NCBI GenBank assembly: GCA_004194705.1
Contig: SADC01001185.1
Coordinates: 518,413 to 582,412, forward strand
DNA: 64,000 bases
Direction of reading: 5' to 3'
Source: Ditylenchus dipsaci
Lineage: Eukaryota; Nematoda; Chromadorea; Rhabditida; Anguinidae
Both the position numbers and the translations under genes were made by a program. The notes under the pieces are model-generated. The model was not told the DNA's origin, ran no database searches, and saw nothing but the letters and a program-made list of their open reading frames with translations. How positions within the stretch are numbered: the stretch's first letter is position 1; each line of letters opens with the position of its first letter. Below, piece by piece: positions 4,672-48,165 of this stretch.

Positions 4672-5446
4672 GGCTCATACTGATTTGGTTTGCGAAAAGG
4701 CTGAAATATGCCACGAAAAAGATTATTTCTGCCACGAAAAACGACATACCACGAAAAAGCGGAAATGTGCCACGAAAAAGCTGAAATGTACCACGAAAAA
4801 GCTGAAATGTGCCACGAAAAAAATTATTTATGCCTTTTTCTGTCCAAGACCAACCAAATTTAGCAATATTTTGCAAGAATTCAAATTTTTTAGTCATGAA
4901 ATAACTTGGATCCCTCAGAATCCTACCCCGGAATGACCAGAAACCCTGAAAGTTGGTTTTTTGGGGGTTTACTAAAGGGGGAGTAAACTTTTTGCGAAAA
5001 TTCGATTGGGCGGGTCAGAATTCCGGTCCGATCGGTTTAATCGCTCAAAATCCCAGGTTTATGGTGTTTTGAGTGGTTCAGCGTGGAATTCTGAGTGATT
5101 CAGCCGATCGGACCGGGATTCTGATCCGCTCAATCGAATTTTCGCAAAAAGTTTACTCCCCCTTTAGTAAACCCCCAAAAAACCAACTTTCAGGGGTTTC
5201 TGGTCATTCCGGGGTGGAATTCTGAGGGATCCAAGTTATTTCATGACTAAAAAATTTGAATTCTTGCAAAATATTGCTAAATTTGGTTGGTCTTGGACAG
5301 AAAAAGGCATAAATAATTTTTTTCGTGGCACATTTCAGCTTTTTCGTGGCACATTTCCGCTTTTTCGTGGTATGTCGTTTTTCGTGGCAGAAATATTTTT
5401 TTCGTGGCATATTTCAGCCTTTTCGCAAACCAAATCAGTTTATGCC
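4672..5446. mobile_element. Word-array MULE-like element, 9-bp TSD GTTAATGCA
   Basis: Exact GTTAATGCA at 4663-4671 and 5447-5455. Ends GGCTCATACTGATTTGG and CCAAATCAGTTTATGCC. The TIRs are arrays of a 20-21-bp word containing CCACGAAAAAGCTGAAATG (about five copies left, four right, inverted). The interior is a large palindrome almost identical to that of 32260-33033, which has a different terminal word. No transposase inside. TSD length and GG...CC ends fit Mutator-like elements. Confidence 0.85.
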
Positions 5447-5640
5447 GTTAATGCAATGATAAATTATTTAAAAAATAATTTCGGAGTAAAAAAAGTGTCC
5501 CGCGCGCATTTGAATTTGCCAAATTCCTATTGTCATCAACAAGTATGGTCCTTTAAATCACGTCATTAAATTTATTTTAAAAATTTCTAGACCGCAACAC
5601 TAAAATAATTGGATTCATGTGTGTTATAGGAGTGGTGTAG

Positions 5641-8600
5641 GTGGAAAAAATTCAATTCTTTTGATGAAATGGACAGCACTTTGAATGTGCAGGCAAGAAA
5701 CAGTTTCTAAAAAATTTAAATTGGAAAAATGAATTCTGTTTATTACAGCAATGGATCCAACAATGCATCCTCATTGACTTCAAGGATGTAGACACCATCG
5801 TAAGTTATTGCTTTTTGTGAAAATTTTCAGTACACCTTTTGTTAATTCAACAATTTAATTTTAGTTAAATTGCCCTAAAGGAGTGGAAGAAGGAGTTTGG
5901 AAATATGGTGATTAACAAGGTACAAGTTGAAATATCTATACTTTTTATTCTAGAACACTTGCGCCAATTTTGCATGGAACTGAATGGATTAGCAGTGCTT
6001 TTGCAAGTCAGTGAATTTTATTTCAAGATCGAAAAAGTGGAGGTGTAAAGTCACCAGTGACGTAATAATAGTATTGAAAGAGTGCTACAATAACGCTACA
6101 AGAGTGCTACATAACTCAAGGGACCGGCCAAGTTACCACGTCCGACACCTTATTGACATCCATTTTTTCAAGCTTCTACCAGTGCTGTTTTGACCATCTG
6201 GTCCCAAATATCGCAAAGCATTTTTTGGAAATACAAATTTTCTACGCTACTCGGTTATACACCCCCCCCCCCCTAAAAAATCAAGATTTTTGGGAGTGGT
6301 CAAAACTCATTTTTAGCAATAATTTTGCCATAAAAGGACCAGAAAAGTGATATTAAGGGGGCATGCTCGCGCCCAATGGAATAATTCCTGCATTTTAAAT
6401 TAGAGATGATGACGATCGATTAATCGCACCTGCGATTAATCGCAAATCGCACCAAATTTGGCAAAAAATAATCGCATCGCATAATCGCATGCATGCTTTT
6501 GAAATAATCGCAAATCGCAATCGCAATTTGAGAAATTGCACGATTAATCGCAAATTTTGCCATACTGAAAAATTTTACCAGCAAAATTACTTTTAGTAAT
6601 GGATGGAACTTTTTTTACCGCAAAAACTTGGAAATTACTGCAAAATATTTTTTCTCACCGTAATGTGATCTTCCGGCAAAATACTTTTCTCACCGCAAAA
6701 TACTTTTTTTCTTACGCAAAAATACTCTTTTCTCATCGCAAATTTTTTTAATCAGAAAATAACTTATCTCGCTCAAAATCTCACCCAGAGTGGTCAGAAG
6801 CAATTGAAAGATGGTTTTTAGGATTCACTAAAAAGGAGTCAATTTTTCGCGAAAACTCGATTTCACGCATCAGTATCCCACTTTAATCGGCTTAATCGCT
6901 GAGAATCTAACTCTAAGCCATTCTCAACCACCTTAAAGCATCCTAAACTGTTCTAAACCAGAATGTAAGTATTCTGAAAAGTCTGAAGGGTGGTTCAGAG
7001 CGGTTAAGGGTGAGATTCTTAGCTATCGAGATGACTAAAGTGTGATTCTGATGCGCGCAATAGAATTTTCGCAATAAGTTCACCCCCAAAAAAGCAGCTT
7101 TTAAGTGCTTTTGACCACTCTCGGGTGGGATTCTGAGCGATCCAAGTGATTTTCTGACTAAAAAATTCAAATTCCCGCGAAATTTTGACTAAAAATCCTT
7201 GATTTTCTCAACAATAATCTGAAGATGCTTAATTACAGGTACTTATTGTTGATAGTTGTCGCAAATGTCCACGTCTACTTTAAATAAAGCTTTTGTTTGT
7301 GCATAGTGTTAAAAGTTTTGATTTCCAGGAGCTAAAAGCAAAAGTAATCGCATAATCGCGCGATTAATCGCACCTGAATTTTTTTGCGATAATCGTTGCG
7401 ATTAATCGCATTTAATTTTTTCAAATAATCGCAATCGCAATCGCATCGGGTTAAGACCAAAATAATCGCAATCGCATAATCGCAAAAGGCCAAATCATCA
7501 TCTCTATTTTAAATTCGCGGGTACCAGGCACGCCAGAGATTTGGATTTCAAAATCGAATTTCAAAGAATTTTGAATGTTTGTTTTAGTTTTTCGATATTA
7601 TCGGTCGCCCTTTTTCCATTTACTCATGTCTCATTTATAAACGTTGTCATTGGAAAAAATGTTTTATAAAGGCACTTTTACGCTAACGACGACGACAACG
7701 ACGGGGCAGGAGCAGCCTGTGACAATTCAAATTCTGCCACCGCAAATTGTGCCAAAATCAAGAGCAATATTCGGCAAATAATTACCGAATATTGCTCTTG
7801 ATTTTGGCACAATTTGCGGTGGCACAATTTGAATTGGCACAGGCTACTCCTGCCCAACGACGACCTATTTATAAAAATCCAACGACAACGCCAACGACAA
7901 CGAAAATTTTTCTTCCAAATTAGACAAATTTTGCATTTTAAGTCAGAATTTTAAGGATTAACTATATTCTCCACACGTTTTTCTTCGAAATCTCGACTAA
8001 AAATGCGAAATTTGTCCAATTTCGAATGAAAAATTTCGTTGTCCTTGGCGTTGTCGTTATACTTTTTATAAATAAGTCGTCGTCGTCGTCGTTGGCGAAA
8101 AAAAGGGTTTTATAAAAAAAAATATTCCAGCGACAATGACGACGAGAACGACAACGTTTATAAATGAGCCATCAATCGAACTTGCCCAATTTCGAACCTA
8201 CCCCCTACCCAATTAGGGTTACTATGCATACAATCCGTAATTCTTAGGCATTTTCAGACTCCTCTAGGATAACTGAGAACACGATGTTGCATTAGATAAG
8301 TTTTTCTAATGTTTTCTGTCGTCCCTTGCTTTTTTTCTCTTGTATGTTTTAGGTGCCTGAAGCTGCAAAAGCGAGAGCATCAATTGATGATAATCAAATA
8401 AAGCAAGCGCGCTTTGAGACTGGACACATTCTGTGTGGAACTGCTTATGACGACCTTCAGAGACCAGTGTGATTAGACTATCTGTGCCGAGCTTTTGTTA
8501 CGCGCGAAAAGTGATAGGTACGGTAAGACTTTGAAGTTTTGGTACAGAGTGATGAACTAAGTCGGATTATTCAAGGTTGCGCTCTGAACCTGTGACTTTA

Positions 8601-11600
8601 CCGAAAGGACGTAAATTTATTTATCTGATGGAACACAAAGAAAAGTTCAACATTGCTGCATTAGATAAGCTTTTATCAGATTTTCTATCGTCTATTGCTT
8701 TTTTTCTCCTGTAAATTTTAGGTGCGTACAGATGTAAGAAAGAAAATGAGGTCGCTTACAATTGAACTCCGGCTTTGTTGCTTAGGCTCATCCTCAATTT
8801 GGTTTCTGGCTCCCGATGAATTGGCTGTCGAACAGTCTGAATAAGCCGTACCTTTGAATCCTGTCTTGTCACAAAACCTTTTGGCCCGGACCTGTTTGGC
8901 CTGTCTTGTCCAAAAATTTCCCATTTTCTCGTATGTTGTACTCTTCACTGTGTTTGAATAAAAAGTCTTTCGAAAAATGGGACTTTTGGTTTTAGTGGAA
9001 TACTTTTGATAGGTGTCCGAATATGTCGTATTTAGTTTATGATAATTACTGCACAGCAACTTTGGCAAATTGTTGAAATGGTCTACTAGCCGATCGCGGG
9101 CGTACTTATCATTTGTAGGTAAAACGGAGGATCAAGGGTGCAAGGGAACCAGCAAAATTATCAAAAGAGGATCAAAAAATCACGGTAAGGAAACCTGAAA
9201 TTCCGTTGCCGCCGTGCTGAGGAGCAATGTCAATTTCTTGAACCACAGTATCGCTAAAACTTCACGAAAACTATTTTTAGGAGTGTTCAAAAGTCATTTT
9301 TAAGTAATATTTTGCTATAAAAGAACTAGAAGTTTTTTAATAGGGATCAAGGGCTGTATTGGGAAGGGAAGGGACAAAACAGGGGCCACTTCTATAGAGC
9401 CTATAAGTACCAAAGAGTATTAATTCTCTGAAGCGTTGAAGGCACTTACAAACCCAGCCCCTTGTGGTGGACGGAAAAGTATAAGTACTTTGAAAGGATC
9501 AGGCCGATCAGCCGGGTGGATCCCACGGAATGTCGTTTAATTTTTGGATGGCTGAGTCTCTGGCTCGTAGCCATAGGCCGGAAAAGGGGAGACCCTTTTC
9601 GGCTAAATAATCAAAGAGGTTGAACACAGTTTTGAATACTGGGGTCTACCGCATAAATAAACTCTGGTATGCATGTTTTTCATCCATCCAGAGTCTTTTT
9701 CGAGTGATTTGTGTCTAAGGTACCGTATTTCCTCTAATAAGCGCCCCCGCTCTTATAAGCAGCCCCCCCCTCGACTTTGAGGGTCTGGATCTCAGTGTAG
9801 AAGCAATATTTTGCAAAGCTGTTTGATACGTTTTCTTAACTCCCCCGAGCTCTACCGATTCCACTTTTCAGATTTTGGTTGAGCACCCAAAAATCGGAAT
9901 CGAATTCCAAATTTTCCGATTTTCGGGGGTTTGAAAAATAAGCGCCCCGGGGCGCTTATTAGAAGAAAAAACGGTATGTGGGGGTATAGGACATTTCGCG
10001 CCCTAGGACATTTCGCGCCCGCCCCATTTCACGCCCGCCCATTTTGCGCCCTAGGACATTTCGCGCCCGCCCATTTCGCGCCCTAGGAATAGTGGCGCCC
10101 GCCCTGAGGTTACAGGTTTAAATCCTGGTAGCATCAGATATTTTTCTAATTTTCAGTCATTAACTAATTATTACTGGACCAGTAAGCCGCATGGTGGGTG
10201 GCATACCTGTTACCTCTCCTAAATGGGTATCCATCTCTAACATCCAAAACTTTGGTTTCAGCTGAAATTAATAAAAAAAAATCAATGTACTATATCAAGA
10301 ATAATGTGCGGAAGACGGCCTGATACTTCTAAAACAGCGACTTGACTTGCAGGAACCGCAGTTCTGCGTAAGTTTTATACCGTAGAGTATTCGGGTGATG
10401 CCCAGGTTAGCAAATACTCAACCTTCAAAATTTCACTTGTTTTTGACTTTATTGTTAGTAAAATGGTACAACAAGTAATAACACACAAAAACTAATTGAA
10501 AGAGATTTCTATCTTTCTATTTTCTTCAACAATTTTCCAGCCTGTAGCTCTGAAGCCATCACTTTGCGATATTCATCCATATCCTCCTGTTGTACGATGG
10601 ACAGACTTCACGCGAGGCACTTTCAGCAAATTGACAAATGAAGACACCACAGTCGCAGCCATTAGTTTGCTTTGGAACACTCTACAAATTTTTCAGTGAA
10701 AAAGTTTGATAGAAATTTTCAAATTTACTTTGTTTCACCTTAATTTACCTTATCTTCTGCGTTGTTGAGATCAAATAGGGACCCTGTGCCATCCGAAAAT
10801 TGTATGCGATGCCCGATAGATATTCAATAGGCACAACCTTTTCCCAGCTTTTGACAGCTTTTTTGACCAGTGCTAGCATTCTCTTATCCGCCCTCCGATA
10901 TTTCTTTGGCTTGATTGGTGGATAATGACCAACCACCATTTTGCTGTACGCTTTGTCTACGCCTCTTTGCACAACAAAAAATAGAAAATAATAGGTACAG
11001 AGATGTTAGATACCTTCATCGAGTCAATAAACTTGAAAAAGTTTGGATGACGGACCCCTAACTCTCATCCTACTATTTTTTTTGATGGGCCTCTTAATTG
11101 AGATGATAAATTTTTTCTTGTGGTATTAGAAACATACCTGCATAATTGTTCGTTCTGTTTTCGCCATTTTCAATTTTTAACCTTGAAACAAAGAATTCAT
11201 CATTAGCACAAAGGACAAATAAATTACCAAGATAGTATTTTTCAAACCCATTCAAAATAGGACTCAAAGAAACAGGCAGGTGCTTTTTCAGAGATGAAAA
11301 GCATTCATCAAGTCGTGAGATCGGCACACCTGATAAAGCCACGATTTTACGGTTGATTTTCTAAAAAATTTTAAAGACTAACTTCATGAGCGAACTGAGC
11401 ATCATTGTCGTACTGTGCAGAAAGTCCTACTTGCCCAAGGTGCTTGTACATATAAGAACGCAGGTGCCAATAGCAGCCATCGATTGAAACCTCCTCCCAT
11501 TCTCCACAAGCCGCATTCTGAATAGCTAATTCATAATCGCAAGAAATTCCTCGAGATTGAGCTGAGGAAACACTTCATGTAGCATTTGTCAGCGCATGAA

Positions 11601-14600
11601 TCAGCTAGCAGCCATTCATCTGGTTCACGTCCATTTATAGCATCATAAAGCCATAAATAATATCATAAATAATAATGCTCTGAAACAACAGGGCTTCTAA
11701 GAACCATAGATATGAAAAATCACCTATAGAGAAGTCGGAACAGGAGGGGGCTTGCAATCTTCTAAATCTGTTCTGGCTCGTCTAATTAGTTTTTTTCTGA
11801 CCTTCGCTTGTGGCATTGCATCATGTATTCCTAGTTCTTGCTTGATTTCGGACTTGCGCTAAGATCTGCCTGTCTGCTATAATAAGAAAAGTACAAGCCA
11901 AGAAGAAAAACAGCAATAAAACAATTACCATGGTAGTAGTCATAGCTAGATGTTTCTCTTCATTCCTGATAGCGGTGACGGCAATGTGAGACGGATACGA
12001 TTCACATCCGTGACCTGTCACCATCCTGAAATATATTTGTTAAAAGTCAAAACAACTCAAGCATCATAATTACTTCATGAAATACCCTTTCTCACTAAAC
12101 CATTCTCTCCCTTTGCAGCCAATTGATTTCTGATCACATTCCGCTAAGACTTTTCCTTCGTTGACACCTTTCAAATCACGATGCTTCGTGTACATTCTTC
12201 CTTGATGGATAAGCTTCCTTTTCCCTCTGTTTGAGAATGCATCATGAGGCTTAGCTAGTAGAGCTTCCATTTGTACAGCGTTCTGATAAAACAAATTAAG
12301 AGTAAGCTAATCAAGAGTATCTAAGAAACCAAAAAGAAAAAGCACTATATGCGAGCCTTTCGATCAGCTCTTATTTTGGGCAGGCGCGATTTGTCCTAAG
12401 GCGCGAAATGGGCGGGCGCGAAATGTCCTAGGGCGTGAAATGGGCGGGCGTGAAATGGGGCGGGCGCGAAATGTCCTAGGGCGCGAAATGGCTCAAGCGC
12501 GAAAAGGGCGAACCCCGTATGTGGGTGTGCGCATCTCAACTCCAAGCCCCCAAGCCCCTGCGCCCTCTTCGGGGTCGCAGGGGGCTTGGGGGGCTCGAGA
12601 GTTAGAGATGCGCGCACTCACTTACCTTAGACATGATTCCGAGCAAGACTTTTGATCAAAAACCGCATATAGAGTCTCTTTTTGCCACGGCCCATGTTAA
12701 AAAACATGGTAAGACACCCGAAAAATAAGATCCTCTAATTGCTTTTATTATTTTTCCCTGAAGGGGGGGAGGGGTTATTACCGAGTAGCGTCAAATTTTC
12801 TTCTCTAAAAAAAGCAAAAACTCAATTAAAAAACAGGATTTTTTAAATCGAGTTATGTTAAATGCTTTTTGCCTTTTTAGTAGGGTTGGCCTCCCTCCCG
12901 GTTGATTTGCAGGTATTTGTTTTTGCCTTTTTAGACAATTATTGCCTTTTTAGGCTTTTTGCCTTTTTAGACAATAAAAATTTAGTTTTATGAAAAACGA
13001 TCGGCAAAATCAGAATCCTCACGATATTTGGGACCAGATTGTAAAAACAGAACTGGCGAAAGACTTTAAAAATCAGGTTAAAAAAAGTGTCGGACCCTAG
13101 GTGGGAACGAACTCCTGACCTTAAATTTATGTTATGTAAATATATAGAGAGTCTACTGAATATTATTGTGTTTTCGACCTACTATTATCATCCCAGATGT
13201 CCATATTTATAAGACTTGTCGTTATTTAAGGATTCCAAACAGTGATGGCAATTTGAATCATTTTCGTAATTTGAATCTTTGCGGGAAAAAATGGCTGTGA
13301 TTCAAATTACGTTCAAATTTATTTGGTCAAAACAAATTTGAATCACTGCTAATTTGAATCATCGCTTTCAGTGATTCAAATTTATTTGTCTAATTTGAAT
13401 CACAGCTAATTTGATTCTCGACACGAAATCAATTATTTTGAAAAAAATTTTGTGTGAAATTCAAGGTGGCAAAGACCAGATGGCTCAGGACAGTGCTGGG
13501 AACTCGTCCTTGGCTCGTCCTTGATATTTTTACGGTCTTTCTCATCGAAAATGTCATTAAATTTCAGAATGTTTGATTCTAGATCTGCTTAAATATATAT
13601 TCTCTACAAGTTAATAAGATAACATTCCTGAATGCATAAAATTCATTAAGTTACACGAAAATGACACTAAAGTCTAAGACGAGTAAATGGACGAGTTTGA
13701 GACGAGTTGCTCGTCCTTAGACTTTTGACGTATTTTTTGTACAATTTAATGCGCTATCTGTGTTATGTTCTTTGCAATTTGTAGAGTAGAGCTTCCTTGA
13801 CGAATCCATACCAAAAGATTGAAAATACACAACATCATTGATGAAAAAATCTGTCAAATATGATGGACAAGGGAAGGACGAGGCAAGGACGAGTTCCCAG
13901 CGCTGCTCAGGACTAGAGCTGTGAAATGGAATATTATCGGGAATATTCCCAGAAAAACACCGATTATCACCTGGAATATCACCGAGAGAACAAAAATGGT
14001 GATAATCTTTTGCTAATAAAATGATTGTGTCTGAACCACCCCACACCACCCAAAACACCCAAAACCACATAATTCACCCAAAACTACCCAAATACTTCGA
14101 GCCACCGGGAAACCGCAAGTGTTGGTACTCAGGTAATGTCCTCAGGCAGCTCAAGCAGCTCTTTCTGGGTGGTGCTACTTCGGGTGTGTACTCATGTAGT
14201 GGTATCCTGGGGCGTTAATCGAATTGATCCATACCGAATCGGCTCACACACGAATCGGTCGGCTCTAGGTCAATTGATCAACGGTCAATTGATCTACGGT
14301 CAATTGATCTACGGTCAATTGATCTACGGTCAATTGATCAACAGGTCAATTGACCTACAGGTCAATTTATCTACAAATTAATTTAAACTAGCATTTTATG
14401 TTTTTATTGTCTTTCGGCAACAGTACACTCTCGATAGACCGCCACCTCTAAAGACGCTGGTTTGCTGGTGGTTTATCGAGGGTGCCATTTCCTGTAAATG
14501 TCGTGTACCTGACTAAATCGGGTAACCATAATGTGACGGTTTATCGAGAGTGGACTTTATTTGATTTTCTTTCGATTTTTTTCTAGCTCTTATGGAAATG

Positions 14601-24065: not shown

Positions 24066-24900
24066 AAACGGCTAGGGGACATTTTTCAAAAACGACATTT
24101 TTCAAAAACGACACTATTCAAAACGACACTTTTCAAAACGACACTTTTCCAAAACGACACTTTTCAAAACGACAATTTTCCAAAACGACATTTTTACAAG
24201 GTTTTTAGATAGCCAAATTAATAGCTTGGTGGATTGATTCACGTTCTTGTTAAGATAGCAAGATAAGCTCAAGCACATCAAGCGACAGTGAAGAAAGCAT
24301 TCTGGAAGTCGTTCCGATTGAAGTCTATCCCGAAGCGTCAAGAATTGAAATTATGGAAAGCTCACAGAACAAGAAGAAAATGCTGGCAATCGGCGGTTGG
24401 TTCTTCCTTTGTCCTTTTTTTAACGTGTGTAACAGCATGGCCCGAATGGCAAACGCGATCGACGGGATCAATTTAGAAGATTTGAACATTGATGGAATCT
24501 AAATAGTTTCTTCTGAAGTGGAGTATTACTGTTGTTATCGCTTACTTTTGATTAATAAAGCTTGATTGGTGGACGAAACTGAGGTTTAATTATGACTGTT
24601 GTGATGTCTGTCTGGTTGGATGGGTATAGAATAATGTATAACGCTAAATTTTGACAGGAGTAAAGAAATGCCGTTTCGAGAACTGTCGTTTTTGAGAATT
24701 ATCGGAACAATGGAAAACGTAGTTTTAAAAATCGTTTTGAAAAAGTTTTGGAAAAATGTCGTTTTGAAAAATGTCGTTTCGAAAAATGTCGTTTGCTACA
24801 TTAGAAAATGTCTTTTTGAAAAATGTTTTGAAAAAATGTCGTTTATTTCGAAAAATCAAGTCGTTTTGAAAAATGTCGTTTCTTGGAAAAAGTAGTCGTT
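24066..24900. mobile_element. AAAACGACA word-array element with one exon-like block
   Basis: Left array of TTTTCAAAACGACAC (about eight copies, 24085-24195), right array of GAAAAATGTCGTTTTG (about eight copies, 24660-24890), inverted. Between them 24261-24505 is open in one frame on the + strand: an acidic start SSDSEESILEVVPIEVYPE, then GWFFLCPFFNVCNSMARMAN and INLEDLNIDGI before a stop. The product is not recognised. A candidate 9-bp TSD CGTTAGAAA/CGTTCGAAA has one mismatch and is weak. Confidence 0.6.
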
Positions 24901-25021
24901 CGAAATCGAAATCGAACAAATGCATTACGAAAAGCAAATGTTTTGGCTTTAAACTTTAAGAAAAAGTGGTACCTAGCCAATAAAAAAAAACCTTTTAAAA
25001 GTCTTTGAAAAACAATGAAAT

Positions 25022-28204: not shown

Positions 28205-29394
28205 CGTTACTACTCATTTGCGCAAAACTCATTTGCGCAAACTCATTTGCGCAAACTCATTTGCGCAAAACTCATTTGCGCAAATTTTTTGAAGTTACAG
28301 GTTCGAAAATATTACTACTCAGGAGTTTTACCTGAGTTCTTCAACCTGGGTACGACCACGTGGGTAGAACAAAACCAAGTGGTCGTCCACTTGGATTAAA
28401 AATTTTTTTACGTTTTTCATGTTCCAAAACCTTTTTTTCTGAATTGATTTAGGCATGCAAAATTTGTTTGTCTACTCACAATAATCCACAAAAGTTTAAG
28501 GTCGACCACCTTGGAGTGGGTAACTACCCACGGTATTGATATTGTGTTCAGGACACGATTTTGGGGACACGGACAATTCACCGTACGGACGATTCATCGT
28601 CCGGGACAATTCACCGTCAAGGACAATTCACCGTCAGGGACAATTCACCGTCTGGGACAGTTCAAATTAGCCCTTTGGATTTGAGCCCCCGCATTTGAGA
28701 CCCCCCCCCCCTCCCCCGTATTTGAGCCCCGCATTTGAGCTCCCGCATTTGAGCCCCGCATTTGAGCCCCATTGCAAAAGCCGACATTTGAATCGGGACA
28801 CGGACATTTCACTGGACATTTCACACGTATATAAAGATTTAGCCCTTATCCCGGACCATGTACCCCCAAAGGGTCAGCCCTTATCCCGGACCATGTACCC
28901 ACAAAGGGGCTTCCTATTGAATTAGGTTGCCTGCCGAAGGCAGGCAGGTAGAAGGAGAAGAATCTTAACCAAAATTAAATGGGGCTCAAATGCAGGGCTC
29001 AAATCCAAAGGGCTCAAATGCGTGTTAACGGCTCACGGTGTTCCGATTGACTCATTGTAATAATGATTGTATGTAAACTGACGGTGAATTGTCCCAGACG
29101 GTGAATTGTCACGTACCCCGATTTTGGATAGGGTACATTGATTTTTTAATACTTTCAGCTTAATCCAAAATATCGGATTCTAGAGGTGAGTGCTTATTCA
29201 AAAGAAGTACCAGGTGGATCTCCTATCCAACCTGAGGTTTACTGGTCTTATAAAAACTAGTTTATGGTTGTTATTCAAGAAAAAATAATTTCTGCTACCA
29301 CCTGCATTCGAACCTGTAACTTTAAAAAATTTGCGCAAATGAGTTTTGCGCAAATGAGTTTGCGCAAATGAGTTTTGCGCAAATGAGTAGTAAT
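28205..29394. mobile_element. Word-array MULE-like element, 9-bp TSD CGAAAATAT
   Basis: CGAAAATAT at 28196-28204 and 29395-29403. Arrays of ACTCATTTGCGCAAA: five copies left (28212-28287), four right inverted (29326-29388). Immediately inside both arrays is a B-box-like segment (AGTTACAGGTTCGAA and TTCGAACCTGTAACTT). 28565-29118 is a later insertion. No transposase. Confidence 0.85.
28565..29118. mobile_element. Word-array MULE-like element, 9-bp TSD CGATTTTGG
   Basis: CGATTTTGG at 28556-28564 and 29119-29127. Arrays of GGACAATTCACCGTC (about six left, two right inverted). Inside are further short arrays: CCCCGCATTTGAG (28685-28770) with inverse CTCAAATGCAGGG at 28983-29025, and TATCCCGGACCATGTACCC twice. 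Same terminal word as 34774-35537. Confidence 0.85.
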
Positions 29395-29717
29395 CGAAAA
29401 TATGCTCAATTTTATGCACTAAATATTCATAAAACTGTTATTTAGGTAAAACCACAACTCGGTACACATTATGACTCGGTATCACGACTCGGTACAAGCA
29501 CGACTCGGTACCATGACTCGGTACAAACACGACTTGGTACTACGACTCGGTACATTTTTTTTCACAAATTATTTTCCTATTGAGACTAAACGCTGGTTCT
29601 GTCTATTTTGGGGTCGAGTATTCATTGTTTTTATGCTCGCCGATTTTATCATTAGTGAGCTGAATATTCTTGTTAATCAAAATAAATTTCAATGTTTTCA
29701 TTTTCAGATCTTTCGCT

Positions 29718-30880
29718 ATGGCCAAAATGCAAATGACCCACTCACAGAGAATTGGAGCAAGAACAGCGCCAATAACCTACGCAGAAGACGGAATAAAATG
29801 CTTTATTTGGACGAAGACCGGTCGAACTTCCGTCAAGAATGGGTTCCAACAGTGCTACTTCAACTGTTCCGAATGCAGAAGTTTCAAAGAAGCTAATGGT
29901 GGTCGAGCAAGAATGGGGCTAAAGTACAGTATATGTCATAGCCGGAAATCTTCACAAGTCATGTTTTTTCAGCGTTTTAGCACCTAAAACATACAAAAAA
30001 CACGTTTTCCGGCCCCGGTCGGCCATTCTTTGAACAAAAAATTTTTTTTTTCGATTTAAATGACCAAATCATGATACCCTATAGCCCACCCCATGGTCCA
30101 TTAATTTTCATGTCACTTTGTTTGTGTTTTAATGATTTTTAGTTTATCATAGCTCTGTTATGTCAATTATGTCTAAGGTATGTGGGTGTGCGCATCTCAA
30201 CCCCAAGCAACCAAGCCCCTGCGCCCCGAAGGGACGCAAGGGGCTTGAGAGTTAACTTGAGAGTTAGTTTAAGGTCATTGGAACAAATGTGAGAAGATCC
30301 GTGCAAGCAGATGTCGCAGCCGGCGCCAAGGAAACACCAGCCACAGCAAGAGTGAAGATCGATGCCAAGCTAGTCAGGGAGTCGGTCCGAGGACAACTAA
30401 TCATGCTGAGAGCTACCACAGCAAGCAGCGACTACATTTTTTGATTGATTCTAAGCTTGTTCATTGGGTGGTGCCATTTCGGCAGGTAAGATTCATTCTT
30501 TGCATATACGGTTTCTGAATTGCATTTAGCTTACTCACAGAAGAAGTTGATGCAATGGATGTCTACCAAGGTGACCAGCCTCCAAGAAGACAGATAACCG
30601 ACTATGGTGAGATTACTCAGAGGCTGGTCCAAGGAAAGGTTTATTTTTCTACGTCAGTAATTTATTAGTGCTTTTTTAACCTTAGAACAAGAGCTTGCAG
30701 TTTTTTTCCAGCGGCGATGGCGTCAACCGGGAAGGGCAGTACAACGAGAAAATGTGCAAGTACCTAACAAGAGTAGGACGACTGATCGGAATTAGCATTG
30801 CCAATTTTCAAGAGGTGCTCCAGGAGGATGATATCCAATTAAATGTGGCTCAAGAAAATATAGAACCAGCTTTAATTTGA
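29718..30880 (+). CDS. FLYWCH-like zinc-finger protein of the element (exons incomplete)
   Basis: Exon from the ATG at 29718 (preceded by TTTTCAG at 29701-29707) reads THSQRIGARTAPITYAEDG, then CFIWTKTGRTS and CYFNCSECRSFKEANGG: the aromatic-W and C-x2-C pattern of a FLYWCH-like finger. It aligns with the 47202 protein over its whole finger. Further open blocks on the same strand: NVRRSVQADVAAGAKETP...ATTASSDYIF (about 30280-30450), EEVDAMDVYQGDQPPRRQ...RLVQGK (about 30540-30638), and CKYLTRVGRLIGISIANFQE (about 30687-30880). Splicing between them is interrupted by the repeat at 30174. Likely binds element DNA or chromatin; no catalytic domain is visible. Confidence 0.6.
30174..30262. repeat. 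Foldback module GTCTAAGGTATGTGGG
   Basis: Copy of the dispersed GTCTAAGGTATGTGGGTGTG module with the GC-rich inner stem AAGCCCCTGCG/CGCAAGGGGCTT. Only the left half of the outer stem remains. Confidence 0.7.
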
Positions 30881-31102
30881 AATCCCGATGTAATTAACTT
30901 GTTTTGATGGAATGTTTATGTACAAATTGTTGTTATGTTAGGTAAATCCGTTGTTTTGTCAGAACAAAAAGCTTTGTGACACTGTCGGTATCTGGTTTAC
31001 TTCGAAAGTGCAGCAATTTTAAAAAGTGTACCGAGTCGTGTTTGTACCGAGTCGTGGTACCGAGTCATAGTTTGTAAAGAGTCGTAGGGCAGTCGTTATT
31101 TA

Positions 31103-32215: not shown

Positions 32216-33212
32216 TACCGTACTTCCTATAATTAGCCGGCCGGCTCACTTTTTAGATCGGATAATATTTTTTCTCACCGCAAATACACTGCGAATGCAC
32301 CGCAAATTATTTTTTTCTCACCGCAATTTGATCTTCCCGCAAAATACTTTTTTCTCACCGCAAAATACTTTTTTCTCACCGCAAAAATACTTTTTTCCCC
32401 CGCAAACCTAATTTCTGTCTAAGACCAACCAAATTTTGCATAATTTTGCAAGAATTCAAATTTTCAGTCAGGAAACAACTTGGATCCCTCAGAATCCCAC
32501 CCCAGAATGGCCAGAAGCCCCTGAAAGTTGGTTTTTTCGGGGTTTACTAAGGGGGGGGGGTAAACTTTTTGCGAAAATTCGATTGAGCGGATCAGATTTC
32601 GGGTCCGATCGGCTCAATCGCCCACAACTTCACCCTGAACCACTCGAAACCACTATAAACCTATAATTTTAAGCGATTAAGCCCATCGGACCCGAAATCT
32701 GATCCGCTCAATCGAATTTTCGCAAAAAGTTTACCCCCCCTTTAGTAAACCTCAAAAAAACCAACTTTCAGGGCTTCTGGCCATTCTGGGGTGGGATTCT
32801 GAGGGATCCAAGTTGTTTCCTGACTGAAAAATTCAAATTCTTGCAAAATTATGCAAAATTTGGTTGGTCTTAGACAGAAATTAGGTTTGCGGGGGGAAAA
32901 AAGTATTTTTGCGGTGAGAAAAAAGTATTTTACGGTGAGAAAAAAGTATTTTGCGGGAAGATCAAATTGCGGTGAGAAAAAAATAATTTGCGGTGATTTT
33001 CAAGTGTTTTGCGGTGAGAAAAAAATACCATCCTTTTTAGATCCTCGAAAATTGGAAAAATTTGAGTTCGATCTCGAGATTTTTGGTCGAAAATCTAAAT
33101 CTAAATTCATGGGAGTTAAGAAAACAAAACAGCTCTGCAAAATATTCACACCGGGCTGAGATATAGGTCTTCGAAGTCGAGGGTGCGGCGGCTAATTAGA
33201 GGAAATATAGTA
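32216..33212. mobile_element. ACCGTATTTTCTCTAATA-family MITE split by a MULE
   Basis: Left end ACCGTACTTCCTATAATTAG at 32218, right part 33034-33212 with GCTCTGCAAAATATTCAC and GGCTAATTAGAGGAAATA. 32260-33033 is inserted at TTTTTAGATC. Confidence 0.7.
32260..33033. mobile_element. Word-array MULE-like element, 10-bp TSD TTTTTAGATC
   Basis: TTTTTAGATC at 32250-32259 and 33034-33043; ends GGATAATATTTTTTCTC and GAGAAAAAAATACCATCC. Arrays of TTTTCTCACCGCAAAATAC, about six each side, inverted. The palindromic interior (AAGACCAACCAAATTTTGC, CTTGGATCCCTCAGAATCC, AAACTTTTTGCGAAAATTCG) is nearly the same as in 4672-5446. Confidence 0.88.
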
Positions 33213-34624: not shown

Positions 34625-34715
34625 ACCGTAAATTCGTCAACGGTGAATTCGTCAACTGGCAAATTCGTCAACTGGCAAATTCGTCAACTGGTAAATTCGT
34701 CAACGGATTTTGACT
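34625..34715. repeat. Unpaired ATTCGTCAACTGGCAA array
   Basis: Five copies of AATTCGTCAACTGGCA variants directly after the arm of the preceding element. It has the look of a word-array end, but no inverted partner was seen in the window. Confidence 0.6.
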
Positions 34716-34773: not shown

Positions 34774-35537
34774 GGGTACGCGACAATTCACCGTGGGGAC
34801 AGTTCACCGTGAGGGACAATTCACCATCAAGCATATCAAAAAGTATCGCCAATTCGCCCCCAGAACAATTGGTACGTAACACAATTCGCCGCGGCCACAA
34901 TTTCGATGTGAAATTTGATTCCGCCGCACATTTTTCAATGTATTTTACTATGTTTTGGTCACTGGAGCTGGGCAAAAAGAGTCACTATATACATTTTTAA
35001 TAAAGAGTCTTGCTCGGAATTATGTCTAAGGTAAGTGAGTGCGCGCATCTCTAACCAACCAAGCCCCCTGCGCACCCTTCGGGTGCTTGGGGGCTTGGGT
35101 TGAGATGCGCACACCCACATACCTTAGACGCAAATCACTCGAAAGTGACTCTGGATGCATGAAAAAACATGCATACCAGTGTTTCTTTATGCGGTAGGCC
35201 CAGTATTCAAAACTATATTCAACATCTTCCCCCAGTCAACCAAACTATGTCAAATTAGTCTTTTTGCTGAATTTTTGGTACGTCGAAACATATTTGGCAA
35301 AACAAATTTCGCGGCGAAATTGTGTCTGTGTTCGAGGACAATTCACCTCCAAAGTCATAAATGAGAACTTTTTATTCAATAAATAACGGGAACAGGTAAA
35401 AATAGTTGAGAACGTATTTAACATTGGTAATGAGTGAAGAATAATAACATTAACAATGAAATAAAAAATGTTATTATAAAGGGCTTTTTAATATGTACGA
35501 CGGTGAATTGTCCCTCACGGTGAATTGTCCGTGTACC
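34774..35537. mobile_element. Word-array MULE-like element, 9-bp TSD GTTTGATAA
   Basis: Exact GTTTGATAA at 34765-34773 and 35538-35546. Ends GGGTACGCGACAATTC and GAATTGTCCGTGTACC. Word GGACAATTCACCGTG, three left, two right. A foldback module in reverse orientation occupies 34990-35290 inside it. Confidence 0.9.
34990..35290 (-). repeat. Foldback module, reverse orientation
   Basis: GTCTAAGGTAAGTGAGTGCG ... CACACCCACATACCTTAGAC outer stem, with the inner stem AAGCCCCCTGCG/TGCTTGGGGGCTT and the adjacent hairpin CTCTGGATGCATG/CATGCATACCAG. Most complete reverse copy; a partial one lacking the GTCTAAGG stem is at 36210-36320. Confidence 0.78.
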
Positions 35538-39900: not shown

Positions 39901-41728
39901 GGCTAAAATTGATTTCCGCCCTCAAAAAACTGATTTACGCCCTCAAATTATTATTTACGCCCTCAAATCAGAAAGTTGATCAAAATACTGATTTACGCCC
40001 TCAAATTGCTCATTTACGCCCTCAAATTTATTATTTACGCCCTCAAATCGATCAAAATGCTTATTTTAGCCATCAAACTGCTCATTACTTCTTTAAACTT
40101 ATGAAACTGGATGTAAATTAAAAACAGAGAAGTCTCTAGTTGCCTTAAAGGGGATGGATCATATCGGCTAGGTCATAGGTTCTAATTCTCTGGGTATACA
40201 CCTCATTTTTTTTCACAAATTTTAGTGAGTTCACCGACTTTGCTGTCAGCAACTACCACAACAATCTGTGCGTTTTAACACTTATGATCGTCAAAATAAA
40301 AATAAAACAGCTAAATTATACGTAGCTAGGTCTATATAGCTTAACATCTGCCTATTTTGTTGACTTCTCAAGGGTTTGCTTACTTTTTAGAGTCGCCATT
40401 AGGTGAATGTTTTGCTAGCAAAAAACAAAGGAAAAATGTAATAGTTTAACAATTTTATTTGCCGTATTCAACAATAACAACTATCCAACAATTTAATGAC
40501 TTGACAAGAAGTCTAAAGCACGCCCAACTTTCTTTTTTCTTCATAGAGTTCGGCGCTGTTGTAGTGCTGGACGGCATTCTAAATCCGGTAGCATGTCTGT
40601 AAGTCCACCCACGGTAGTCTTTTCGAAGAAGCCAGGATTGGGAGAACTTCAAGCACGCAGTCCAAAGACGTTCGATTCCACCCCACTTTGCAGCCCAGTG
40701 TCGAGAAAGAGTTCTTGTTGCTGAAGAAGTGTGTCTAAGATTTTTTCAAGATTGATAGACGTTAGAGCTTACCTACCGCGAATTCGCAAATATTGGTAGC
40801 CCGAGATAAGACAGCCACATCATCCTTGGAGTGCTTGGAGTGTAGGGGTGAGCTTGACGTGCACTTGCTATGGCGCCAAAATATTTGCTGTATGCCCAAG
40901 TGGCCTCATGCGATGAGATAGCAGTGAAAGTGGGAAAGGGAATCTTGTCGGCATCAAAGAAGGCGGCAACCTGAATTTTGCGATGAGATGATTCTGCTAT
41001 AACATGATAACTTACAGAAGAGGGTAGTTCAGCGTTATTAACTTGTAGGTCCCATCTGCTTGCAAAACCACTGAAAAGGATTGGCGGCGCCTTAGAGTTG
41101 ATATCACAAGAATAAGCTTCACTGACGGACGTTCAACTTTGTCTTTGCCACGCACTGTGATATTCTCATAGAAAAAAGCGACTGCACATGGCCTGTCTTC
41201 GTCTTTAAAATTTATAGTTAAACAAGACCGCGAAGTGGAGGCTACTTACCTGTTATCTCCTTGTAGCGAACTGGTGAGACCTTTTGAGTAGCGGAGGCGC
41301 ATACGAGCTTTGCAGTCGAACTTCCTTTTTCGCTTCTTCTTCGAGTAGTGGCGCAAGTATAGGTCCTTAGCTGCCTTGATTCCTTCTTCAGCGGAGTCGT
41401 AGCAATAATCCTTTCCGTGTTCAGCAAGCCAGCCATCGATCTCCTCCTTGTTCTTGCAGAGCATAATGGTTTTCCACTCGGTAGCGGGCCCTCGCTTCTT
41501 AAACATCTTAAATTTAATGGTAAATCTGAGAAATTTGAGACTGTAAATAAATGATTTGATGGCTAAAATAAGCATTTTGATCGATTTGAGGGCGTAATAA
41601 TAAATTTGAGGGCGTAAATGAGCAATGAGGCGTAAATCAGTATTTTGATCAACTTTCTGATTTGAGGGCGTAAATAATAAATTTGAGGGCGTAAATCAGT
41701 TTTTTGAGGGCGTAAACTACTTATAGCC
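39901..41728 (-). mobile_element. Word-array MULE with transposase gene, 9-bp TSD CTTTTTTAC
   Basis: CTTTTTTAC at 39892-39900 and 41729-41737; starts GGCTAAAATTGATTTCCGC, ends CTACTTATAGCC. Word TTTACGCCCTCAAA: about seven copies left (39915-40065), about six right inverted (41585-41715). A TTAAAGGGGATGG...AGGTTCTAATTC B-box-like module lies inside the left array (40146-40195). Encodes the transposase at 40457-41506. Confidence 0.9.
40457..41506 (-). CDS. MULE-type transposase, four exons, C-terminal DDE part shortened
   Basis: Exons 41250-41506, 41016-41202, about 40777-40970, about 40457-40734. Start MFKKRGPATEWKT. The N-terminal part has a small FLYWCH/WRKY-like region (KKRKRKFDCKARMRLRYS). 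VVLQADGTYKLI carries the expected first catalytic Asp of MULE transposases, followed by FFDADKIPFPTFTAISSHE and WAYSKYFGAI, the usual downstream block. The second Asp (before a C-W-H signature) is not apparent. The C-terminal exon reads LLRKDYRGWTYRHATG and MPSSTTTAPNSM, resembling the W-Y...G.PSTNN block but altered. Probably recently functional or a shortened variant; GT-AG introns of 45-60 bp. Confidence 0.72.
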
Positions 41729-43778: not shown

Positions 43779-43784
43779 CTGAAA

Positions 43785-44565: not shown

Positions 44566-46016
44566 TACCGTAAATACTCTATTAAACGGCCCCCCTCCAA
44601 TTAACGGCCCCCCTTAAGGACGTATATCTCAGCTTAGAAAAAAAATTATGCAAATCTGTTTTTCGCGTTTTCCTAGTTACCACAAGTTTACCTGATTCCA
44701 CTTTTCAGATTTTGGTTGAGCACCCAAAATAGGGTTGCAATCTTTCCGGAAAGAATCTTTGCCAGAAAATTTCCGGAAAGTTTCCAGAAAGTTTCTAAAA
44801 TGTTGGAAAGATACTTTTCGATTCTTCCACATGAGTTCTTCCATTTTATTTGCACAAAGCCTCTGTTACATCAACAAATAACATCATAATATTCAAATCA
44901 ACAATTAATCGAAGACAAATAAATCATTCTCATCATAAAATGCAAAATCCAACAATTTTTCTGTTCGGATCATCGTCGCGTTAAAATATCTCCAGCTCCA
45001 GCTTATTGGCTTTGTTTTATCATTGCTGAACAAAAAGAAAAAGGACAACTGCCGACAATTCTGACTGTCGACCCCAGCTGCCGACAATTCTAACTGCCGA
45101 CCCCCAACTGCCGACCATCCAACTGCCGACTAATTATCAGGTTTTGATATAATATAAATCTAGCTATAGATCTAACATTTTTGGGTTTTCCTTTGATTGG
45201 TTTGATTAATATTTGCTGATTTTTTTACAAGTAAACATGCTATTTTGTACTAACCATACTACTCAAAAGCTCAAAAAGGCACTTTTTGAGTTTTAGTCTA
45301 TAAAAAATTGAATTTCGAGACCACCCAAAAGTACCTTTTTTGACCATTTTACCATTAGACATGATTCTGAGCAAGACTCTCAATCAAAATGTATATAGAG
45401 ACTCTTTTGCCCAGCTTCAGTAACCAAAACAGGGAAAAACAGGCAAATAGTCAAAAAGGTCAAAATGGTTTACAAAAATTTATTTGACACATTTGCCTTT
45501 TAGTCATACTTACTCGAAAGAGTAGGTCAGAGTTAGCTATACAAATTATAAAAATTTACATTTGTACACACACGGCGACGCAGCATTGAGAAAAAAAAAG
45601 GTAAAAGATCTTGAAGCGTTTGCCTTGGTTCACCCGAGAGAAAAGTTAATTTTAGTCAGAATTTGATAATTGGTTGGCAGTTGGAATGGTCGGCAGTTGA
45701 CCCTCGTTCAACAAAGGCGGATAAAACAAAAGAATAAAGTGAGCTAAATACAGGCAAATGAAAAACGCCAAAATTTGAGGACAGCAATAACAAGGACATG
45801 TTAAGACATTTGAATTCGCGCCCAAAAGAATCTTTCCAAATTTCAAGGCTCTGGAAAGAATCTTAATTCTTTCCGGAAAGTTTCCGAAAATTTTGCGTGG
45901 AAACTTTCCATCACCCAACCCTACCCAAAAATATCAAAATCAAAATATTTTTTGTTCGATTTTCAGGGGTTGAAAAATAAACGGCCCGGGCCGTTTAATA
46001 GAGTATTTACGGTACT
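44566..46016. mobile_element. ACCGTAAATACTCTATTAAA MITE split by hAT element
   Basis: Left TACCGTAAATACTCTATTAA at 44566, right TTTAATAGAGTATTTACGGT ending at 46014. The hAT-like element 44730-45923 is inserted at CACCCAAAA. A short end of the same family lies just upstream at 44540. Confidence 0.75.
44730..45923. mobile_element. hAT-like element with CTGCCGAC array inside
   Basis: Ends TAGGGTTGCAATCTTTCCGG and CATCACCCAACCCTA; flanks share CCCAAAA (7-8 bp). TCTTTCCGGAAAG words near both ends. Inside, 45047-45122 has four AACTGCCGACAATTCT-type words and 45665-45702 two inverted copies, so a word-array element is nested, though its TSD is unclear. Non-coding. Confidence 0.75.
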
Positions 46017-46019
46017 CGG

Positions 46020-46234: not shown

Positions 46235-46663
46235 GGACGGTACTTTTTTCTGCCCGCAAATTACTTTTTTCGCCCGTAAACTTTTTTTCCCCGCAATTTT
46301 TTTCCGTTCTTTCTGCCTGTTTATCTTGAGTTTTCTGATATTTTTCAAAAAGCGATAATACCATAGCGTAGCCATGCAATTCTAGTTTTCAACGTGGTAT
46401 TATTTTATACAAGGTCTAAAAATGAATAACAAAAATGTAAAAGTATAAACCGAATCATTTTTTGGCTCGTTTTATACTTTTACGTTTTCTTTTTCATCAT
46501 TCAAAGATTTTGCAGAAAATAATACCTTGTTAGAAACTAGAATCGCAGGCTACACGACGGTAATATCACTTTTAAAAAAAGATAATAAAACTAAATAGAA
46601 CAAGACAAAAGGAAATTTGCGGGCAGAAAAAAGTATTTTGATGCGCAGAAAAAAGTACCGTCC
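46235..46663. mobile_element. Short word-array MULE-like element, 10-bp TSD ATTCAAAATA
   Basis: ATTCAAAATA at 46225-46234 and 46664-46673; ends GGACGGTACTTTTTTCTGC and inverse. Three left and two right copies of TACTTTTTTCTGCCCGCAAA, a word related to that of 32260-33033 (TTTTTCTCACCGCAAAATAC). Confidence 0.88.
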
Positions 46664-47031
46664 ATTCAAAATAGTGTTTTGGCGTTTGTTTTTGATCGAC
46701 TTTTTAAAAGATGCTTTACAAGTTTTACATGTTAAGAATAAAAACAGATAAGCAAACATGTTTATACCTTGCGCAGCTTTTTTCCAATCTTCTTTGATAT
46801 ATCCATCCATTGTCGGTAATCTTAAAGCATTCTAACTAAAGAAATGTAATATACAGTATATAGACAATTTGCTTTTGTTGAAATTTACAAGAGACAGATA
46901 TACCGCATTTCCTCGTTTTTTAAAAAAGCCCCCTTGTCTAAAAAGAGCCCCGTGACTTTGGGAACCTTTATCTCAGCCCGGGGCAGAAATTTAACATCGC
47001 TGTTAATTTAATACTTACAAGCTATATAGAT

Positions 47032-48165
47032 GGTGGAAACAGGATTCGCTACAAACATAACTCGCTACCACAACTCGCTACACCTTTTTATTACACCTTT
47101 TTGCAATGGGATTTTTATTCAAGCTGCTGATTTTTCGATTATTTTTTCCGTTTGTTGTGAATGTTTTCGTATCTATGACACAATGTATTTAAGGTCTTCT
47201 GATGGCTAACACTCAACTCGTGCACTCGCAAAGGATCGGAACAAAGACTGTGCCGTTGACGCTCACCGAAGATGGTCTTGGAGTCTACTCATGGACCAAG
47301 CGAGGAAGAACAGTCACGCTTGCAGACGGCTCCGAAGAAGTTTATCTCAACTGCGCTGGATGTCCTGCCGTCGTCGACAAGAAGGCGCCAAGAAAACGTG
47401 GAGTTCTTCGATTACGATATCCTGATCTTACAGATTCACACTCCGGTCATTGGTCGTTCGTGGTATGTTTTACTGAAAGGAGTGAAATTAAGCATTATTT
47501 TTTGTTTAGATGGTTAATCTGGAAAAAGGAAAGCTAGTGTACCACGACTCATTGCATGGCGACGGCACAAAGCACGTGAACTTGATAAAGTAAATAGTTT
47601 CAGATAAGAATCAAGTTCACAGAGAGCCATTATAGGGATTTCGTGGCAGAATATGCGGTCGAAAGAGGATATGCGACGGAGGATCGATCAAGTGACTTCA
47701 TGACGGTTGACCCATCTAATTGGCTTTGCTGCTGCCCAAAGGTTTGTCTAAGATTTCACTGGTCGGTGAGTAAATTCTAATTTCTAGGACATCCCTAAGC
47801 AGCAAAACGGTTTAGACTGCGGAGTTTTCGTCTGCAAGTTTGCTGAATGTGTGTCTCGTCGAGGACGGATGGAATTCACTCAACCGCAGATAGCTGTCAT
47901 CAGGCGGAGAGTTGTTCTAGAAATGTTATCACCATGTGTTATTTTGTTCAAATGTTATTGTTTGTCTTTTACTTATCTCACGTTCTATAAAGTTATTCAA
48001 CTTTTGATGGAGTTGTCAAATTTATAAAAGCGGAGAATCGGGACAGTAAAAAAATGATCAAAAAATCAGCAGCTTGAATAAAAATCCCATTGCAAAAATA
48101 AATAAATAAAAAGGTGTAGCGAGTTGTGGTAGCGAGTCATGTTTTGTAGCGAGTCGTATTGCATT
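47032..48165 (+). mobile_element. Word-array MULE-like element with FLYWCH-Ulp1 gene
   Basis: TATATAGAT (47023-47031) and CATATCGAT (48166-48174) are a 9-bp TSD with two mismatches, confirmed by alignment to the uninterrupted MITE 55591-55817. Three words left (AACTCGCTAC type, 47047-47080), three right inverted (48115-48155): ACGACTCGCTAC. AAAAAGGTGT/ACACCTTTTT inner arms. Encodes the gene at 47202-48027. Confidence 0.85.
47202..48027 (+). CDS. FLYWCH-like finger joined to Ulp1 (C48) protease-like domain
   Basis: ATG at 47202. The finger SQRIGTKTVPLTLTEDGLG, YSWTKRGRTV, VYLNCAGCPA matches the 29718 protein. Then a Ulp1 core: SGHWSFV (catalytic His), intron 47462-47507, VNLEKGKLVYHDSLHGDG (Asp), DFVAEYAVERGYATEDRS, DPSNWLCCCPK, intron about 47742-47788, then DIPKQQNGLDCGVFVCKFAE with oxyanion Gln and catalytic Cys, to a stop at 48025-48027. 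So H-D-Q-C are all present. The segment FFDYDILILQIHTP, expected just before the His, lies in another frame, and the finger is unusually close to it, so an internal deletion and frame slip are likely; the 47589-47632 intron also needs a non-standard splice. C48 proteases cleave SUMO or related tags. Confidence 0.75.

Follow-up and report, generated by a model that had tools for sequence, protein, structure and literature searches.

Foldback Mutator-like transposons bounded by family-specific word arrays in the nematode Ditylenchus dipsaci

Results

Elements of the window

A 64,000-nucleotide stretch of the genome of Ditylenchus dipsaci, the plant-parasitic stem nematode (GenBank assembly GCA_004194705.1, contig SADC01001185.1, positions 518,413 to 582,412), hereafter the window, holds twelve elements, E1 to E11 and E5b, each bounded by inverted arrays of a short, family-specific word, as detected by repeat finding and word scans (Table 1). 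An initial annotation of this DNA had proposed eleven elements of a single design and of the foldback Mutator-like type; our analysis supports both the design and the type, and adds E5b to the count. All ten of the words that it listed are in place and inverted between the ends, and E11 is built with an unlisted one, GACACTTTTCAAAAC.

The limits of each element were set by a direct repeat of 8-10 bp immediately beyond the arrays, with a score that includes the match between the ends and a leading G, and were judged against a null distribution of 400 mispaired left and right flanks (7-bp repeats lie outside the scoring). Ten of the twelve window elements have an exact repeat above the 95% level of this null and nine exceed the 99% level, E6 clearing only the former, which bears out the claim of mostly exact target site duplications (TSDs) of 8-10 bp. 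No direct repeat was found for E10 and no clean one for E11, and both fail the test. When 26 array pairs from transposase loci elsewhere in the genome (see below) are added, 30 of the 38 scored elements lie above the 95% level and 24 above the 99% level; the remaining 6 of the 32 pairs are too close to the end of the locus to be scored. The ends, annotated as mostly GG...CC, begin with GG on both sides in seven window elements (E1, E3, E5, E5b, E7, E8 and E9) and with GGCTAGG in E11; the other four (E2, E4, E6 and E10) lack this start.

Table 1. Word-bounded elements of the window and features within them. Positions are those of the window.
Feature	Position	Strand	Description
E1	4672..5446		non-autonomous foldback; word CCACGAAAAAGCTGAAATG, 21-bp unit; TSD GTTAATGCA
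Palindromic core within E1 words	4838..5303		88% identical to E7 core
E2	6402..7505		word CGATTAATCGCA; TSD ATTTTAAATT; ends AGAGATGATG
E3	9983..12516	-	word GGACATTTCGCGCCC; TSD GTATGTGGG; degenerate element coding for FLYWCH, MULE and Ulp1
E3 Ulp1 protease piece	10607..10681	-	PF02902, E 1.1e-5, above cut-off
E3 MULE catalytic-core piece	11374..11574	-	PF10551, E 0.011, below cut-off; 77% to L049
E3 FLYWCH piece	12073..12306	-	PF04500, E 0.001, below cut-off; 54% to L013 piece
E11	24070..24983		word GACACTTTTCAAAAC; GGCTAGG...CCTAGCC at the ends, without a clean TSD; related in part to the L072 MULE locus
E4	28205..29395		word ACTCATTTGCGCAAA; 8-bp repeat GAAAATAT; hosts nested E5
E5	28565..29118		word GGACAATTCACCGTC; TSD CGATTTTGG; ends GGACACGG / GGGTACGT; inside E4
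E6	29445..31094	+	word ACGACTCGGTAC; 8-bp repeat GTTATTTA; open reading frame related to that of E10
E7	32260..33033		foldback; word TTTTCTCACCGCAAAATAC, 21-bp unit; TSD TTTTTAGATC; core 32412-32880 common to E1
E5b	34774..35537		second GGACAATTCACCGTC element; TSD GTTTGATAA
E8	39901..41728	-	word TTTACGCCCTCAAA, 21-bp unit; TSD CTTTTTTAC; putative degenerate transposase, second MULE lineage
E9	46235..46663		word TACTTTTTTCTGCCCGCAAA; TSD ATTCAAAATA
E10	47032..48166	+	word ACGACTCGCTAC; no TSD found; limits approximate
E10 Ulp1 piece	47788-48024	+	PF02902, E 3.7e-8, above cut-off

Several elements are nested or mixed. Positions 28205-29395 form a nest three deep, in which E4 encloses E5 and E5 encloses inverted CCCCGCATTTGAG arrays together with a 35-bp tandem pair; no direct repeat was found around these innermost arrays. 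The interior of E2 holds a diverged E7-type stretch at about 6601-6742. Insertions into the arrays of other families also occur elsewhere in the genome (loci there are numbered with the prefix L), with a TTTGCTAAGCGGTCGA element lying in GGACATTTCGCGCCC words at L046 and an E7-type element in TTTGCTAAAA words at L089. Single-ended arrays with no inverted partner nearby stand at 14264-14374 (TCTACGGTCAATTGA), 34630-34704 (AAATTCGTCAACTGGC) and 45046-45135 (CAACTGCCGACAATTC), the second of them resembling the word of locus L056 (similarity 0.62).

A first Pfam scan of 10 open reading frames (ORFs) of the window detected no domain of Mutator-like element (MULE) transposases. E3 nevertheless carries one, as shown by homology of up to 77% to the transposases of other loci and by sub-threshold FLYWCH and MULE pieces followed by a Ulp1 protease piece, in that order on the minus strand. 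A pair of GGACATTTCGCGCCC arrays around a MULE match on C93, considered as a full-length partner of E3, was rejected, the locus (L046) showing a different, nested element. In L027, L044 and L045 a single array pair encloses both MULE and Ulp1 pieces, and L049, L052 and L070 have both kinds of piece with no array pair in the stretch examined; in L039 a Ulp1 piece lies about 1 kb from an array of the E3 word. With less certainty, E8 belongs to a second MULE lineage. Its word was found in 11 of the 12 loci retrieved with the E8 N-terminal peptide (the window copy included), the lineage gives FAR1 and SWIM signals below their cut-offs, and a better-kept relative, L083, matches one MULE-domain protein at 3.6e-7 with 30% identity. 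The annotation's two MULE transposases thus stand, that of E8 on weaker ground and through L083. No MULE was found in the other window elements, save for a 23-residue match between E11 and the L072 MULE locus. The ORF of E10, FLYWCH-like by eye only and with no such Pfam match, is 41% identical over 70 residues to that of E6, and the words of these two elements differ by one base.

Word arrays across the genome

The genome searched comprises 226,978,389 bases in 1359 contigs, and a survey gives 227.2 Mb for D. dipsaci, with 55.7% repeats (PMC11118728). Exact copies of four of the words are distributed over both strands: 284 of CCACGAAAAAGCTGAAATG (141 plus, 143 minus), 51 of GGACATTTCGCGCCC (24 and 27), 1055 of ACTCATTTGCGCAAA (579 and 476) and 104 of GGACAATTCACCGTC (42 and 62), with 0 matches to each of the four reversed words. 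Orientation was examined in all 51 places of GGACATTTCGCGCCC and in the first 100 of each of the others. These places group into 208 same-strand arrays, and neighbouring arrays no more than 7 kb apart face inward in 60 cases, the same way in 2 and outward in 0. Two of the inward cases are parts of a single array, the word of which holds a palindrome, separated by 5 and 24 bp, which leaves 58 real inward pairs. For about 88 of the 208 arrays an exactly matching partner is absent from the surrounding 7 kb, having diverged, been lost or fallen outside the listed places. Among L001-L007, four E1-type copies each have an exact 9-10 bp repeat and the end motifs of E1; L003, which yielded no repeat in its own frame, and L004, which yielded one, are a single element. 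The word arrays therefore behave as transposon ends and not as satellite, and unlinked satellite DNA is rejected in view of their orientation, with no outward case among 62 neighbouring pairs.

Transposases and their words

A six-frame search detected at least 115 matches to the MULE domain (PF10551), a lower bound as 150 of 504 candidates were scored, and we examined 64 of these loci (the 30 best and 34 others, several obvious duplicates being skipped). A word array lies near 60 of them, and 32 are enclosed by a matching inverted pair, as compared with 24 of 300 stretches drawn at random from the array-rich window. Arrays scoring at least 80 occur at 61 of the 64 loci and also in 200 of the 300 control stretches; because they are so common in the controls, only the enclosure test is informative. 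A FLYWCH domain was detected upstream in 43 of the 64 loci with a profile built for this analysis, while Pfam PF04500 exceeds its cut-off for pieces of L009 and L064, falls below it for E3 and gives nothing for L037. The 32 database matches of one transposase are to nematode, wasp, mite, aphid, dragonfly and unnamed proteins, and five D. dipsaci proteins match it with 44-64% identity over 40-57% of the query.

Words were taken as the same at a similarity of 0.7, shuffled words having a mean of 0.26 and a 95% level of 0.39. The 60 word-bearing loci fall into 24 word clusters, which need 24 changes on the transposase tree, one more than the minimum of 23, whereas 200 shuffles give 44-51. Protein identity and word similarity are correlated over the 60 loci (Mantel r 0.60) and over 37 representatives (r 0.49), a value reached by 0 of 2000 permutations in either case. 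The question put by the annotation, whether each transposase clade goes with one word, thus has a positive answer, and neither finding that would have told against the annotation, TSDs of other lengths at further copies or words that are unlinked satellite, was made. None of the 1262 transposase pairs less than 60% identical shares a word at 0.7, and 11 reach 0.6. At the other extreme, 23 pairs of representatives at least 75% identical have words below 0.6 similarity. This indicates that words change faster than enzymes. Among the pairs are transposases with 84-96% identity in the catalytic core and with words, GACATTTCACCGCC and GACAAAACACCGCC, set apart mainly by a three-base block.

In the window, the E5 word reaches 0.69 similarity with GACATTTCACCGCC, and the E3 word is 0.73 similar to GTTTCCCGCC, yet the E3 transposase is nearer to the clade with the GACA word. 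The words of E1, E2, E4, E6, E7, E9 and E10 have no partner at 0.7 or above among the 60 MULE-locus words, and no MULE transposase encoded with them was found in the window or the 64 loci. The tie between word families and FLYWCH-type MULEs that the annotation had drawn is thus not supported for every word.

Anatomy of the ends and of the word

Among the MULE elements, 20 passed the repeat test, and 17 of these begin with GG at both ends. Of the 17, 15 pair a GG(G)T end with a GG(G)A end. Inside the ends, words follow each other at 14-17 bp in 360 of 395 steps (32 paired MULE loci, whose arrays had been chosen with periods of 12-24), and the unit is about 21 bp in E1, E7, E8 and E9. Between the near relatives L011 and L036, even the orientation of the gene differs, as if the interior had flipped between the arrays.

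The words of different families share the block C[A/G]TTT, the remainder being more variable. When each cluster is represented by a single exact word and these words are aligned by rotation, the shared information is 7.98 bits, as compared with 5.73 +/- 0.22 in 40 shuffles (largest 6.29) and 6.86 in 20 random re-orientations (largest 7.23). As the re-oriented sets lie between the shuffles and the observed value, the excess is due partly to composition and partly to order. Searched for in degenerate form, GACAWWWCACCGCC has 743 copies and its reversed control 10. Within the first 100 of the 743 places, all 15 multi-word clusters have the expected orientation and none mixes AAA and TTT; where the minority form is present it occupies both arms (4 of 4 clusters), as would be expected if the two arms were homogenised together.

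One core within two kinds of ends

E1 and E7 have in common a palindromic core of 470 bp, 88% identical, although the similarity of their words (0.26) equals the mean of shuffled words. Homology ends within about 16 bp of the edge of the array on both sides, and the 16-mer at the edge of the core has 526 exact copies in the genome; for the core as a whole there are 3224 preliminary candidates, of which 40 were scored. Two more copies of the core, selected from a search with this edge for lack of the exact listed E1 word, are enclosed one by E7 words and the other by diverged E1 words (L089 and L090). Because E1 and E7 words enclose the same core, at least two end types ride on it. Nested or paired elements could have exchanged their ends through recombination or gap repair and, as one core lies between unrelated arrays, defective elements may be able to switch the enzyme that mobilises them.

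Discussion

The elements described here belong to a known kind. The annotation had regarded so many word families tied to FLYWCH-type MULEs in 64 kb as unusual and had drawn parallels with Drosophila FB/Galileo and Arabidopsis FARE, overlooking two nearer relatives, Tm1 (PMC3169594) and Muta (PMC5225508). The design already exists in these, and the view that it is unusual in itself is not supported. Tm1, of the root-knot nematodes (Meloidogyne) and the Phantom subclass of Mutator/foldback elements, combines FLYWCH and MULE domains with ends made of tandem words of 13-15 bp, target duplications of 8-10 bp (mostly 9), asymmetric terminal motifs, one of them CCTACCC (GGGTAGG when read inward), and non-autonomous members resembling miniature inverted-repeat transposable elements (PMC3169594). 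All of these features recur in D. dipsaci, the word length and asymmetric termini in the 14-17 bp class and not in the 21-bp class. Tm1 has one word family, whereas D. dipsaci has 24 word clusters among the 64 loci, together with a 21-bp class and members bearing Ulp1. The Tm1 word CGATTCAGTATCCGC and its M. hapla counterpart CGTTTCAGTATCGC reach best similarities of 0.52 and 0.55 among our 60 words, above most shuffles and below the threshold for sameness, so that we regard our elements as Tm1-like rather than as Tm1. In Aedes aegypti, 10 of 12 Muta families with long terminal inverted repeats have tandem repeats of 9-15 bp and 13 of 14 have FLYWCH; Muta1, with 12-bp repeats and 3-4 bp spacers, is classed as a type 2 foldback and is mobile in yeast (PMC5225508). 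As in Muta, one genome harbours many MULE families with tandem-repeat ends, FLYWCH and transposase-less derivatives. Muta comprises 14 families, and a test of co-divergence between repeat and transposase was not found in the part of that report consulted (PMC5225508). The N-terminal FLYWCH typical of the Phantom/Muta clade is present in our elements, as are the two hallmarks of the MULE superfamily, a MULE-type DDE transposase inside the element and target duplications of 8-10 bp.

More distant systems illuminate particular aspects. In the VANDAL elements of Arabidopsis, a Mutator-like protein, VANC, and its tandem motif diverge together via the formation of tandem repeats, although VANC is an anti-silencing factor and its motifs are internal and not inverted at the ends (PMC5735166). 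In Galileo, of Drosophila, the ends are also foldback-like with tandem repeats, which are bound by the THAP zinc domain of the transposase (PMC3688188). The domain of one subfamily binds the end of a second more weakly, that of a third not at all, and the end from one other species well (PMC3688188), and chimeric copies combine ends and interiors of different subfamilies (PMC3688188, PMC3573991). Galileo belongs to the P superfamily, with THAP, 7-bp duplications and neither MULE nor FLYWCH, unlike the elements of D. dipsaci with MULE, FLYWCH and repeats of 8-10 bp.

A Ulp1-type protease is known from plant Mutator-like elements, namely Kaonashi/KI-MULE and FARE2. By domain content, with Ulp1 and MULE in one element, L027, L044, L045 and E3 resemble them, and differ in their animal host and FLYWCH N-terminus. 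The main text of a MULE review makes no mention of Ulp (PMC6446971), and no animal FLYWCH-MULE-Ulp1 element was found by title or opening of the abstract in the open-licence literature. The kind of element and the co-divergence of a Mutator-like protein with a tandem motif are therefore already known, from Tm1 and Muta and from VANDAL/VANC respectively. Within our searches, which covered the open-licence literature and left most subscription papers outside, the number of words per genome, the concordance across the tree, the single core with two end types and the animal FLYWCH-MULE-Ulp1 elements are new.

We think it likely that these are foldback Mutator-like transposons whose words are family-specific binding sites of their transposases, probably read by the FLYWCH domain. 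The mechanism that we infer draws on the anatomy described above, on the precedent of Galileo and on Muta1, an element of the same build that moves in yeast. Transposition would proceed by cut and paste, with target duplications of 8-10 bp. An end of the 14-17 bp class would consist of a short terminal motif at the point of cleavage, usually GGGT at one end and GGGA at the other, then an array of two to more than 10 copies of the family word, and then the cargo. The transposase of the family would bind the word, probably via its FLYWCH zinc domain, and the array would boost avidity and supply a specificity beyond that of a single short site. As enzyme and word drift and the array is homogenised, families would cease to mobilise each other. 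Non-autonomous elements could be served by any enzyme able to read their arrays, and the same core could in this way come to lie between different arrays.

Could the arrays instead be passive? They might arise by slippage or aborted gap repair near the ends, spread by homogenisation and be inherited together with a transposase that reads the terminal 10 bp only. Descent alone would then predict the concordance with the tree, and the terminal motifs, similar across families of the 14-17 bp class, could suffice for recognition. Nor does FLYWCH stand out as the reader. Its agreement with the word is at most slightly closer than that of the catalytic core, and as the better predictor of the word FLYWCH had to be given up, the two being inseparable in a test of partial correlations (0.14 for FLYWCH and 0.16 for the core over 25 representatives; 0.25 and 0.16 over 42 loci). 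We nevertheless hold passive arrays to be unlikely. Families keep to a unit spacing of 14-17 bp, their words have a block in common to an extent that shuffles do not reach, and short elements devoid of transposase (E1, E7 and E9) retain their arrays. The words of E1 and E7, moreover, are wholly unlike around nearly the same core, which gradual drift would not yield. If the arrays were bound by a family-specific protein that serves some other function, for instance a VANC-like anti-silencing factor or a regulator of transcription, this would account for the co-divergence of protein and motif, as documented for VANC in Mutator-like elements (PMC5735166), and the extra Ulp1 protease encoded by some families could be seen in the same light. 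Within the element, VANC motifs occupy introns and upstream regions (PMC5735166), whereas the arrays here are terminal and inverted and are found also on transposase-less elements a few hundred bp long, and we consider such a role improbable. That the words are satellite DNA invaded by unrelated elements seems to us barely credible, even though a foldback transposon turning into satellite has been described in Tetris (PMC4079207) and both single arrays and arrays lacking a nearby exact-match partner exist here, since neighbouring arrays never face outward and are bounded by direct repeats.

Binding of the words by the transposase remains our preferred interpretation, and a number of observations weigh against it or blur it. 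Descent alone would likewise produce concordance with the words, and the tree itself, built from 60 catalytic cores over 83 columns, leaves 23 of 53 inner branches open. Of the 60 word assignments, 28 are one-sided arrays picked by eye from a repeat table, and no word array was found at 4 of the 64 loci. The GACAAAACACCGCC cluster is an exception to concordance, being found on two transposase subclades; no FLYWCH piece was found in the second of these (L025, L049 and L052), and the transposase exon of L025, a short element, is closer to the other family (identities of 89% to L027 over 248 bp, 83% to L062 over 269 bp and 78% to L043 over 580 bp). Eight of the 38 scored elements fail the repeat test (L015, L019, L021, L038, L047, L069, E10 and E11), and three others (L029, L053 and L066) pass it without the GG motif, their ends being probably misplaced. 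The asymmetry between GGGT and GGGA is unclear in L025, gives way to GGCTGTACCC at both ends in L046 and, in the window, is present in E5 and absent in E3, E5b and the 21-bp class (E1, E7, E8 and E9). It also bears no fixed relation to the gene, as among 16 MULE elements 9 have the 5' side of the transposase gene towards the GGGT-type end and 7 towards the opposite one. Lastly, a search with the joined flanks of E4 yielded no exact empty site for E5, because the 21 places that match almost end to end are each about 35 bp longer.

A broader interpretation, which we put forward tentatively and consider somewhat doubtful, is that one genome might act as a natural library of at least two dozen largely non-interchangeable pairs of transposase and array. 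Each word would comprise a conserved and a fast half-site, the fast one being read by the zinc domain. Arrays would be exchangeable address labels, with cores switching transposase by replacing both arrays together, and families would arise through divergence of the word and not of catalysis. If true, transposon families originate by divergence of their recognition word, in a kind of speciation. It is an open question how a transposase can come to recognise different DNA and yet keep hold of its own copies, because both ends and the enzyme must shift together. The families provide a natural system for the study of how transposases tell their own ends from others, and with many enzyme-word pairs at graded distances in one genome, a FLYWCH recognition code becomes measurable. 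FLYWCH domains occur also in host transcription factors (PMC12265568, PMC10027918).

Other features of the window

The remainder of the window holds several features of other kinds. A large foldback at 20395-21687 has perfect inverted arms of 267 bp and 40-bp TGATTAATCAA repeats. The plus strand of 16902-18655 encodes a MADF DNA-binding domain, an HTH_Tnp_4 match below its cut-off and pieces of DDE_Tnp_4, a combination that we take to be that of Harbinger-type transposons. At 26005-28038, on the minus strand, an RSB motif (PF16294, 1.9e-8) lies near a lysine-rich ORF, presumably the host gene acinus. An ORF related to LURP-one and scramblases (PF04525, 2.7e-7) adjoins E7 at 33262-33852 on the minus strand, and two fragments of GNAT acetyltransferases are located at 43462-43791 (minus) and 56614-56877 (plus).

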